NCBI RefSeq assembly: GCF_900112255.1
Contig: NZ_FOLE01000006.1
Span: 1-64,000, forward strand
Reading direction: 5' to 3'
Source of the DNA: Flexibacter flexilis DSM 6793
GTDB taxonomy: Bacteria; Bacteroidota; Bacteroidia; Cytophagales; Flexibacteraceae
DNA length: 64,000 nt
Notes under the pieces: model-generated
What the model was told of the DNA's origin: nothing
The model's database searches: none
Seen by the model: the letters and a program-made list of their open reading frames with translations, nothing else
Shown here: positions 6,342-55,374 of the stretch, piece after piece
Position numbering within the stretch: position 1 is the first letter of the stretch
How the letters are laid out: each line of letters starts with the position of its first letter
Made by a program: the position numbers and the translations under genes

Positions 6342-6380
6342 AAAATGCCGATACGCGTAAATGTTGCGTATCGGCATTTT
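6342..6380. terminator. Bidirectional terminator between pepP and tamL
   Basis: A perfect 15-bp stem, AAAATGCCGATACGC (6342-6356) with its complement at 6366-6380, sits between two convergent genes and ends in A/T runs on both sides. Confidence 0.9.
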
Positions 6381-25340: not shown

Positions 25341-25386
25341 AAAAAGGTTGCGCCTCTGTCAATTCTGACAGAGGCGCAACCTTTTT
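25341..25386. terminator. Perfect 21-bp-stem bidirectional terminator
   Basis: AAAAAGGTTGCGCCTCTGTC (25341 onward) pairs perfectly with its complement ending at 25386 around a 4-nt loop, with A-run on one side and T-run on the other. It separates convergent degP and the methyltransferase gene. Confidence 0.95.
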
Positions 25387-45492: not shown

Positions 45493-45534
45493 ACCAAAAG
45501 AGCACGTCCAATCGCTTGAACGTGCTCTTTTGGT
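45493..45534. terminator. Bidirectional terminator, deacetylase / aspS
   Basis: ACCAAAAGAGCACGT (45493-45507) pairs with its perfect complement at 45520-45534. It lies between convergent genes. Confidence 0.9.
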
Positions 45535-51561: not shown

Positions 51562-51601
51562 AAAACGGGGTTCGGTACAATCAAGCACCGAACCCCGTTT
51601 T
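51562..51601. terminator. Bidirectional terminator, GT4 / M13 peptidase
   Basis: AAAACGGGGTTCGGT (51562-51576) pairs perfectly with its complement at 51587-51601; convergent genes on both sides. Confidence 0.93.
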
Positions 51602-53680: not shown

Positions 53681-53886
53681 TTATGAAATGAAAAGGGTTT
53701 TGTTGTTATTTTGAATAGACTATTCGATAATAGTTTGCAAAATAATGAAAAACCCACACAGCAAAATATTATTTGGCCATTAGCGGCAAAAAAAGGGTAT
53801 AAGCGGCATTTTTCATGGGAAATTGGTTTTTCTGTAATCGCCTGTTGCACAAAGTATTGTATTTTATTTAATAAGAATATTTAAAA

Positions 53887-53924
53887 TATGTGTACTTATT
53901 ATTTGAATATAATAAGTACACATA
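53887..53924. promoter_or_regulatory. Palindromic operator over the MarR-operon promoter
   Basis: A perfect 16-bp inverted repeat, TATGTGTACTTATTAT at 53887-53902 and its complement at 53909-53924, with a 6-nt spacer. A third half-site ATAATAAGTG lies at 53939-53948, 30 bp beyond the second. The repeat embraces the -33 element and the promoter spacer, so a bound protein would block RNA polymerase. Expected ligand: the MarR protein of the same operon. Confidence 0.8.
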
Positions 53925-53933
53925 ATATATTTG
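53902..53933 (+). promoter_or_regulatory. Promoter of the SRPBCC-EVE-MarR operon
   Basis: TTTG (53902-53905), 20 bp, TATATTTG (53926-53933). The leader is about 40 nt to the ATG at 53979. The right arm of the palindrome lies wholly between the two elements. Confidence 0.75.
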
Positions 53934-53978
53934 TATATATAATAAGTGATAAAACAAAAAAAACAAACAACTAAAATT

Positions 53979-54398
53979 ATGTGGACAAAATCGTATAGCA
54001 CCGTAACGAACGCCGTAACAAAAGAACAAATTTGGAAATTGTTTGCCGACGTGGACAACTGGCACACATGGGACGAAGGCGTAGAATTTGCCAAACTTCA
54101 TGGCCAATTTCAGGAAGGAACTTTCTTTACTTTGAAACCAAAAGGAGGCCCGAAAGTAAAAATTGAGTTGGTGCAGGTAGAAGAAAATAAAGTTTTTATG
54201 GATTTGACGCGTTTCCCGTTGGCCAAAATGTACGGAGAGCACACGTTTGAAGATACGCCCGAAGGCCTGAAAATCACGATTACGATGCGTGTGGAAGGTT
54301 TGCTCAAAGCCTTATGGATAAAATTAGTGGCGCAAGATATTGTGAATAACTTGCCGAAAGATGTTGAAAATCAGACAAAAGCAGCCAGTAAATTATGA
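53979..54398 (+). CDS. SRPBCC (polyketide cyclase/START-like) protein
   Basis: A small cytosolic protein of 139 residues with the SRPBCC helix-grip fold: SYSTVTNAVTKEQIWKLFADVDNW at the start, curved sheet segments (GTFFTLKPKGGPKVKIELVQVE; HTFEDTPEGLKITITMRVEG), and a long C-terminal helix. Such proteins bind hydrophobic ligands. Start at 53979 (ATG) rather than 53946 because the upstream codon is nearer the promoter and adds Lys-rich sequence. Its TGA overlaps the ATG of the EVE gene (ATGA). Confidence 0.85.
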   Translation: MWTKSYSTVTNAVTKEQIWKLFADVDNWHTWDEGVEFAKLHGQFQEGTFFTLKPKGGPKVKIELVQVEENKVFMDLTRFPLAKMYGEHTFEDTPEGLKITITMRVEGLLKALWIKLVAQDIVNNLPKDVENQTKAASKL

Positions 54399-54838
54399 TT
54401 TCTACCGAAAAACAAAACCCTAAATATTGGGTAGCCGTCGTGTCGCAAGAACACACGATGCGCGGCGTGGCAGGCGGTTTTATGCAAGTCTGTCATGGCA
54501 AAAAATCCCCTTTGCAACGAATGCGCGAAGGGGATTGGCTTTTGGTTTATTCGCCCAAAATACAAATGGAAGGCGACGAAAAATGCCAAGCCTTTACGGC
54601 CATCGGGCAAGCCGCCGACGGCGCAGTTTATCAGTTCCAAATGTCGGAAGACTTTATTCCGTTTCGCAGAAATATTCGCTTTGAGCCATGCCAACAAGTA
54701 GCCATTGCGCCACTGATTGCGGAGCTGGATTTTATTCAAAACAAAAAATCGTGGGGTTATCCGTTCCGTTTTGGTTTCTTTGAGATTTCGGAGAAAGACT
54801 TTACTTTTATTGCCTCAAAAATGTTAGAAAATGAGTAA
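54395..54838 (+). CDS. EVE-domain protein
   Basis: A 147-residue protein consisting of an EVE domain, a PUA/YTH-related fold that binds modified bases in DNA or RNA. YWVAVVSQEHTMRGVAGGFMQVCHGKKSPLQ-type beginning, GDWLLVYSPKIQMEG, and CQAFTAIGQAADG are conserved. A helical tail ends KSWGYPFRFGFFEISEKDF, also typical. The aromatic cage cannot be verified by eye. Overlaps both neighbours (4 nt upstream, 8 nt downstream), so it is translated as part of one operon. Confidence 0.87.
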   Translation: MISTEKQNPKYWVAVVSQEHTMRGVAGGFMQVCHGKKSPLQRMREGDWLLVYSPKIQMEGDEKCQAFTAIGQAADGAVYQFQMSEDFIPFRRNIRFEPCQQVAIAPLIAELDFIQNKKSWGYPFRFGFFEISEKDFTFIASKMLENE

Positions 54839-55289
54839 TTCCGACAATACATTTAGCTTTGAAGAGGCAGAAGATAGCGCAGGTTTTTTGCTTTGGCAAG
54901 TAACGAATCTGTGGCAAAGAGAAATTCGCAAAGCTTTAGAGCCGCACCAACTCACGCATTCGCAATTTGTGCTAATGGCCAGCATTCATTGGCTTACGCT
55001 TCACAATCAAGAAGTTACGCAAGTTGTTTTGTCCAATAACACCAAAATTGACCCGATGACGACTTCCACTGTTTTGCGCACGCTACAAACGAAAGGTTTG
55101 GTAGAACGTCACGAACACAGCACCGACACACGTGCCAAAGTGGTTCGGCTGACGGCGCAAGGCACAGCAATCGTAAAAGAGGCTGTGGTTACGGTCGAAA
55201 ATTTTGATAGAACATTTTTCGCTTCGTTGGGCGTGGACGCGCAATTTTTTAATCAAAAACTAAAAACATTGCTCAAATTTGAATCCTAA
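54831..55289 (+). CDS. MarR-family transcription regulator
   Basis: A 152-residue winged-helix repressor. Features: helical dimerisation N-terminus (AGFLLWQVTNLWQREIRKALEPHQL), LTHSQFVLMASIHWLT, recognition helix region KIDPMTTSTVLRTLQTKGLVER, the wing HSTDTRAKVVRLTAQG, and a C-terminal helix. Third gene of the SRPBCC-EVE-MarR operon, 8-nt overlap with EVE. Autorepression through the palindrome at 53887-53924 is inferred. Confidence 0.92.
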   Translation: MSNSDNTFSFEEAEDSAGFLLWQVTNLWQREIRKALEPHQLTHSQFVLMASIHWLTLHNQEVTQVVLSNNTKIDPMTTSTVLRTLQTKGLVERHEHSTDTRAKVVRLTAQGTAIVKEAVVTVENFDRTFFASLGVDAQFFNQKLKTLLKFES

Positions 55290-55342: not shown

Positions 55343-55374
55343 GCAGAAACCCAAGCAATTGCTTGGGTTTCTGC
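55343..55374. terminator. Perfect 32-bp palindrome, terminator of rpoB and the MarR operon
   Basis: GCAGAAACCCAAGCAA (55343-55358) is followed without gap by its exact complement (55359-55374). On the minus strand it runs into ATTTTT, a good rpoB terminator; the plus side is less T-rich. Confidence 0.88.

Follow-up and report, generated by a model that had tools for sequence, protein, structure and literature searches.

Mirrored PamR-type sites in the promoter of an SRPBCC–EVE–MarR operon of Flexibacter flexilis and its putative autorepression

Which protein would bind the large palindrome in the promoter of a three-gene operon of Flexibacter flexilis DSM 6793, and is the palindrome itself the unit that would be bound? 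We addressed this question in the first 64,000 nucleotides of contig NZ_FOLE01000006.1; this whole stretch is called the window below. A first-pass annotation of the same letters had read the palindrome as one large operator, with repression of the operon by its own MarR protein as the simplest explanation.

The operon and the palindrome in its promoter

The three genes lie on the forward strand. The first encodes an SRPBCC protein (Polyketide_cyc2) of 139 aa (53979..54398; Pfam match 8.4e-13), with its start placed at 53979 by a conserved Met-Trp beginning. The second encodes an EVE-domain protein (NF002616) of 147 aa (54395..54838; Pfam match 5.5e-17). The last gene of the operon encodes a MarR-family regulator of 152 aa (54831..55289; Pfam match 2.7e-7; PF01047, 30.8 bits vs a cut-off of 24.6), which is the proposed binder of the sites S1 and S0 described below. 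The overlapping arrangement reported for the trio was borne out by these domain matches and by overlaps of 4 nt between the SRPBCC and EVE genes and 8 nt between the EVE and MarR genes. Another palindrome with 16-bp arms (55343..55374, assigned to neither strand) is located between the MarR gene and a convergent rpoB-like gene, named rpoB by eye from the sequence, and may act as a terminator.

The nearest solved structure to the SRPBCC protein is SMU.440 (3IJT). It was matched in sequence with an E value of 1.9e-20 and was the first structural match of the predicted model (pLDDT 96.7), with a TM of 0.84 and 23% identity over the fold alignment. The model also matched TcmN-type aromatase/cyclases, and it suggests that the protein resembles binders of aromatic ligands. 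The EVE protein scored above the NF002616 cut-off, as did a protein of the B. subtilis control genome, presumably YdcG. The EVE model (pLDDT 79.6) matched the UPF0310 proteins PH1033 and MJECL36 and then, more weakly, ASCH and YTH domains; the EVE Pfam match and the model both point to an EVE/YTH-like fold, and reading of modified bases is predicted. MarR proteins with an OhrR-type thiol switch have a reactive N-terminal cysteine. The window MarR protein contains no cysteine, and a switch of this type was ruled out. The trio fits a ligand-responsive module, as had been suggested. The operon is patchily distributed, since none of 10 other genomes of the family to which the window belongs gave a MarR match with more than 40% identity.

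The perfect inverted repeat occupies 53887..53924 and has no strand of its own. Its arms, TATGTGTACTTATTAT (53887-53902) and ATAATAAGTACACATA (53909-53924), are complementary at 16/16 positions and flank the spacer TTGAAT, which confirms the 16-bp repeat with a 6-nt spacer that had been described. Arms of 16 bp were reached by 0/3000 first-order Markov shuffles of the 298-nt intergenic stretch, where the longest were 15. The 64-kb window contains 17 perfect inverted repeats (arms of at least 10, spacers of up to 20), and among these two have longer arms than the palindrome and one has equal arms. Long repeats of the window lie at 25341-25386, 2708-2752, 45493-45534, 51562-51601 and 6342-6380, several of them terminator-like by eye. 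The 28-bp core of the palindrome (GTAC to GTAC) occurs once in the 4.25-Mb genome with up to 3 mismatches allowed, and a looser form with half-sites 8-14 bp apart is likewise single there. A putative −33 element, TTTG (53902..53905, forward strand), and a putative −7 element, TATATTTG (53926..53933, forward strand), are separated by 20 bp, which we take to fit the Bacteroidota promoter consensus; the same type of −7 box follows the site in relatives. In agreement with the earlier description, TTTG lies at the palindrome centre, its first base in the left arm and the other three in the spacer, and the palindrome stops at 53924, 1 bp before the −7 box.

An 18-bp site and a 15-bp step in relatives

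The palindrome can be divided into two putative operator sites of a known type. Operator scores were based on the published B. subtilis sequence. Once the relatives had been seen, the second base was permitted to be A or T, and variant −7 boxes were accepted in the register count. The putative site S1 (53910..53927, forward strand, TAATAAGTACACATAATA) scores 12/14 to the 18-mer TWATAAGnnnnCTTATWA. It corresponds to the right arm of the palindrome plus three bases, and its two last bases, TA, open the −7 box. The putative site S0 (53884..53901, forward strand, AAATATGTGTACTTATTA), also 12/14, is a mirror copy of S1 and corresponds to the left arm plus three bases; it lies just upstream of the −33 element and 26 bp upstream of S1, centre to centre. 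A possible further site, S-1 (53869..53886, forward strand, TAATAAGAATATTTAAAA, 12/14), is found exactly 15 bp upstream of S0. The chance of a score of at least 12 in this AT-rich stretch is 0.00034 per position, and three of the seven such sites in the 64-kb window are in this promoter. A weak position, S2 (53925..53942, forward strand, 9/14), lies 15 bp downstream of S1. It is not significant alone, the chance of a score of at least 9 being 0.067 per position, and most relatives have a better second site at this position. The third half-site of the first-pass annotation is present 30 bp further on (ATAATAAGT, 53939..53947, forward strand), but it is only a lone half-site that scores 10/14 as a whole site, and about two whole sites scoring at least 10 would arise by chance in DNA of the same length and composition. 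In the window, S-1 pairs with S0 and S1 with the weak S2, and the palindrome arises where S0 and S1 face each other.

MarR relatives were gathered from genomes (26 loci in one set, more from further genome searches). There were 73 loci with a MarR match of at least 90 bits, the window included, and 39 of them had an SRPBCC gene upstream of MarR. The near-duplicate L126 was dropped, leaving 38 SRPBCC–MarR loci. L127, whose SRPBCC frame is broken, stayed in this set and counts as a miss; the 34 MarR relatives without SRPBCC were scored apart. The best score of the 18-mer was at least 12/14 in 33/38 loci vs 1.4% of shuffled upstream regions, and 14/14 (second base A or T) in 10/38; the figures for these 38 loci are partly in-sample. 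In 28/28 Bacteroidota loci besides the window, the end of the site coincides with the leading TA of a TAnnTTTG box or a near variant, and S1 shares this register. A TTGAC −35 box precedes the first site of the pair by 8-11 bp in 7/8 Bacilli-class loci, the eighth (L127) being without a site. When the score was slid around the best site, the dominant peak was at +15 (mean 10.66 vs 5.78 for shuffled sequences, z 18.6), with a smaller peak at −15 (z 9.5). A mate at 15 bp scored at least 9 in 37/38 loci (7.0% in shuffles) and at least 10 in 33/38 (1.0% in shuffles). L127 was the sole locus among the 38 that had neither the site nor the 15-bp mate.

The large palindrome behaved differently. The position 26 bp upstream of the best site scored at most 8/14 in the 36 scorable of the 37 other loci, and the position 26 bp downstream scored at most 7/14 in 37/37, so that one 38-bp operator was rejected as the conserved unit. 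The earlier reading of the palindrome as the operator unit was not upheld: its 38-bp form is absent upstream of orthologous operons, and what is conserved is one 18-bp site with a mate 15 bp away. The window promoter has this conserved pair only in weak form and the 26-bp mirrored pair instead. The half-site ATAATAAGT, which had been proposed as a handle for searching other genomes, is a fair proxy, but the palindrome itself is not. As far as its sequence tells, the 38-bp palindrome is a local arrangement of two sites of a known type and not a new kind of operator, and among the SRPBCC–MarR loci examined such a palindrome, with putative sites 26 bp apart, is peculiar to the window promoter.

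The site is present from Bacteroidota to Bacilli and in one archaeal MAG. The EVE gene is less constant. An EVE match was found in 11/38 loci only and was missing from 27/38; therefore SRPBCC–MarR is the core and EVE is optional. EVE as an essential part was rejected on this count, and among four new loci with SRPBCC adjacent to MarR, two have EVE. In Chitinophaga niastensis (L049:3851-3995), fragmentary EVE matches between SRPBCC and MarR are a sign of EVE loss. A MarR tree of 43 rows, from which L003 was left out because it is too short and has a stop within the MarR frame, did not settle the position of the window, and the EVE distribution on it was patchy. In the literature searched, which covers few subscription papers, we found the operator described only for B. 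subtilis and no mention of the 15-bp step; as far as that literature shows, the apparent conservation of the site and its 15-bp step across phyla is new.

Relatives were also found in 18 plasmid records, and 10 regions were examined. On three Priestia plasmids (L128, L133, L135) the sites are mirrored at a centre-to-centre distance of 22 bp; two of the three gave near-perfect palindromes of 46 and 48 bp when measured. A Pantoea plasmid has sites 15 bp apart within an imperfect 45-bp palindrome. Because mirrored site pairs occur on these Priestia and Pantoea plasmids, large mirrored palindromes are, on the sites predicted here, one recurring way to build an operator of PamR type, with spacing that differs. 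On plasmids of Lactococcus lactis, Lactococcus garvieae and Protochlamydia, the sites are accompanied by a second one 15 bp off. No convincing PamR-type site is present on the Arthrobacter, Acinetobacter and Moritella plasmids (L131, L136, L137), whose best scores are 8 to 11. Two pattern scans of viral contigs for a viral home found no relative.

The surroundings of these copies varied. The Priestia palindromes precede EVE and MarR genes, a hypothetical gene is also listed in L128 and L135, and group II intron genes lie on either side of L128. The L. garvieae plasmid (L134, 10 kb, typed mobilizable) has the order polyketide cyclase–MarR–EVE, two sites 15 bp apart and an ISS1N transposase nearby. 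In the Protochlamydia plasmid pPNK (L129), the MarR relative lies directly before a dihydrofolate-reductase-family gene, so the partner is not SRPBCC; its sites score 13 and 11 at 15 bp. Other palindromes were seen by eye near the related MarR operons of L131, L136 and L137, and the one in Arthrobacter (L131) has 13-bp arms and an 11-nt spacer, which is the spacer length of the VOC-clade operator described in the last section.

The binder of the site and the working of the promoter

When 395 genomes of the phylum were searched with the SRPBCC profile, matches came from 7 genomes, with 7 places outside the window. All four new SRPBCC genes adjoining MarR had the site, with scores of 11, 13, 12 and 12, together with a mate 15 bp off that scored 10 or 11, whereas 0/3 new SRPBCC genes lacking any MarR match within the 3.4-kb locus had it (8, 8 and 9); this comparison, like the plasmids, is not in-sample. 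Among the 34 MarR relatives without an SRPBCC neighbour, none reached 12 and the best score was 11/14; thus the site goes with the SRPBCC–MarR pair. One MarR subgroup of Bacilli-class genomes (L106-L119, L121, L122; genomes mostly of 6-8 Mb) is 49-55% identical to the Cohnella MarR and has no SRPBCC or EVE match nearby and no site. The conservation of the site before SRPBCC–MarR operons, its linkage to that pair and the binding of this sequence by PamR in B. subtilis together support autorepression by MarR well. In these respects the first-pass annotation stands: MarR is the likely binder, and with a putative site in the promoter that is tied to the SRPBCC–MarR pair, autorepression is still the simplest reading.

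The site does not seem to mark a large regulon. In 32 genomes holding the system, a strict scan for the consensus in the promoter register, with at most one mismatch, gave 24 matches in 20/32 genomes, 19 at the operon and 5 elsewhere vs 10 for the reversed pattern, and three of the five off-operon matches are one homologous, unrelated locus. The strict pattern recovered the operon's own site in 18/32 genomes and missed it in 14, the window's among them (S1 has two mismatches), so the scan excludes an excess of strong further targets, not of weak ones. In the window genome, the consensus with at most two mismatches occurred at 32 places vs 79 for the reversed pattern, and a large regulon was rejected on these counts. 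The only strict-pattern match in the window genome is a 14/14 site in the −7 register upstream of an S8 peptidase gene (L075:1448-1465; G000:C4:63447-63464). By its sequence this promoter is a possible second target; it is a single case, not above chance in number, and by our rough estimate about one strict site of this sort per genome is due to chance.

We consider it likely that the SRPBCC–EVE–MarR operon is autorepressed by its own MarR protein through PamR-type sites and released by a ligand. A MarR dimer would bind the 18-bp PamR-type sites. A dimer on S1 would block RNA polymerase, as this site is placed between the two promoter elements and reaches the −7 box. S0, the mirror copy just upstream of −33, would also be bound, and occupancy of both S1 and S0 would close the promoter, with S-1 and S2 perhaps adding further dimers. 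MarR would leave the DNA in response to a small molecule of probably aromatic or polyketide-like nature. The SRPBCC binding protein, the EVE protein and MarR would then rise together, and newly made MarR would reset the switch. Binding by the window MarR protein, the number of dimers, the ligand and the jobs of the SRPBCC and EVE proteins are all points that we infer. Taken alone, the window promoter would be an ordinary case of MarR autorepression.

It may be asked whether both halves of the palindrome matter. S1, on the −7 side, might be the only working site, and S0 and the palindrome might be by-products of a local duplication that hardly influence repression. Nothing corresponds to S0 at −26 in the 36 scorable of 37 other loci, and a 37-nt direct repeat (73%, step 41) spans the same stretch, as a duplication would leave. 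However, the mirrored identity of 16/16 is beyond chance in the shuffles described above, and mirrored pairs recur on the Priestia plasmids (centres 22 bp apart) and the Pantoea plasmid (15 bp apart). We regard this reading as rather unlikely.

The trio might also be a resistance or detoxification unit, in which an aromatic antibiotic would be both the compound sequestered by the SRPBCC protein and the signal that frees MarR, with the EVE protein handling modified bases. The SMU.440 and TcmN-type matches of the SRPBCC model and the copies on plasmids point in this direction, as do, in the portions of the two reports available to us, the class heading used by Bell 2020 (PMC7641849) and the proposal of the SMU.440 authors (PMC2749211). 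On the other side, EVE is missing from 27/38 loci, and the available part of the B. subtilis study describes mutants with unaltered sensitivity to the agents tested (PMC5730154). We hold this idea only tentatively. It refines the autorepression explanation and does not oppose it.

We consider a bolder version improbable. In it, the operon would protect by itself from aromatic natural products that modify bases or intercalate, and it would have moved across phyla and into plasmids together with its own portable promoter-operator. The SRPBCC protein would bind the compound, the EVE protein would bind the altered base and MarR would sense the compound. The operator in the window would have been rebuilt from the 15-bp pair into a doubled array (S-1, S0, S1 and weak S2), on which up to four dimers might wrap the promoter and sharpen the switch.

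It is very unlikely that some other regulator, whose gene lies outside the operon, recognises the whole palindrome as a single unit, with MarR acting at another place. A 38-bp palindrome does exceed one MarR site; however, the site was found in 4/4 SRPBCC loci with a MarR neighbour vs 0/3 without, its range takes in Bacteroidota, Bacilli and one archaeal MAG, and in the available part of the B. subtilis report it is a MarR protein, PamR, that binds this sequence (PMC5730154). A DNA or RNA hairpin, as terminator or attenuator, is hardly credible: the perfect arms could pair, but they are AT-rich, relatives keep the site and not the long arms, and the palindrome is upstream of the putative −7 box and so would not be transcribed from this promoter.

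With MarR autorepression as the preferred reading, the lone palindrome becomes a testable rule, which consists of an SRPBCC–MarR core, an optional EVE gene and a portable operator with a 15-bp step. The surrounding promoter elements change between Bacteroidota, Bacilli and one archaeal MAG, but the operator is retained. With this rule such modules can be looked for, and it provides a reporter for seeking the ligand, a question raised by PamR of B. subtilis as well.

Comparison with a paralogue and with known systems

The window genome also has a VOC–MarR pair (G000:C4; L074), whose MarR protein is 46% identical to the window MarR. Its operator, TTGTTGTCGCA-N11-TGCGACAACAA, lies at the −7 box (G000:C4:22157-22189; L074, L145) and occurs once in the window genome, the −7 box running from the spacer into the right arm. 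The pattern was found in 6/6 loci of the VOC-type MarR clade with at least 18/22 matches; five of the six have a VOC match, and L085 has none. The 11-11-11 arm-spacer geometry of this clade is that of the outer half-sites of L054. The VOC–MarR module and the window operon are alike in being small units with a MarR gene and paired half-sites centred on the −7 box, but they differ in operator sequence and in the residues of the probable recognition helix (DPMTTSTVLR vs DRMMVSKVLR between the two MarR clades). The data fit two insulated autorepressors, both putative, that share one layout.

Rv2887 is the best-scoring solved MarR protein for the family of the window MarR. According to the available part of the report, it was crystallised on DNA as two dimers that cover 15 bp each on nearly opposite faces (PMC5526998). 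This is consistent with the conserved 15-bp step, and on this analogy the step most likely represents two dimers side by side. Rv2887 differs in that the same text describes GC-rich DNA, a proposed indirect readout and another target gene (PMC5526998).

In SMU.440–SMU.441 of Streptococcus mutans, as far as the available text goes, the SRPBCC gene overlaps the MarR gene by 4 nt, the SRPBCC structure has been solved (3IJT) and the authors propose resistance to a polyketide-like antibiotic (PMC2749211). The window shares the SRPBCC gene with a MarR neighbour, and SMU.440 is the best sequence and fold match to the window SRPBCC protein. For this pair, neither an EVE gene nor an operator is described in that portion of the paper (PMC2749211); in the window, MarR is two genes on, with EVE between.

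The closest operator is that of PamR (YdcH). In the part of the study available to us (PMC5730154), PamR binds TAATAAGnnnnCTTATTA between the −35 and −10 elements of B. subtilis ydcFGH in gel shifts, where two complexes are seen, and PamR deletion strongly derepresses the promoter. Exact repeats of the TAATAAGnnnnCTTATTA type were not found elsewhere in the B. subtilis genome, and loss of PamR changed many genes, mostly indirectly in the authors' opinion (PMC5730154). YdcF has 97 aa and no similarity reported there. No antibiotic or stress tested had an effect on the promoter, the sensitivity of mutants to the agents tested was unaltered, and ydcF and ydcG mutants raised expression only 3- to 12-fold, which argues against partners that are essential to sensing (PMC5730154). 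As described in that text, ydcFGH resembles the window operon in being a three-gene operon with EVE in the middle and MarR last, and in having an 18-bp repeat of the TAATAAGnnnnCTTATTA type between the promoter elements together with a second copy (PMC5730154). The likeness rests on gene order, EVE family and operator sequence, and the window repeat is 12/14 and not exact. The first gene is YdcF there and SRPBCC in the window. A second copy is found in the window as S0 (and S-1), but in another layout: it overlaps the start site in B. subtilis, whereas S0 is 26 bp upstream. The window promoter is also of the Bacteroidota type.

The SRPBCC–EVE–MarR trio itself is already in print, in Bell 2020, in SMU.440–SMU.441 and in ydcFGH. 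In the available part of Bell 2020, MarR–EVE with SRPBCC or VOC forms three-component operons, placed under the class heading 'putative ligand-activated antibiotic resistance' (PMC7641849). By gene content, the window has the same three gene types in one putative operon. That text gives the gene context without an operator; our analysis adds the putative operator and its spacing, and finds EVE dispensable.
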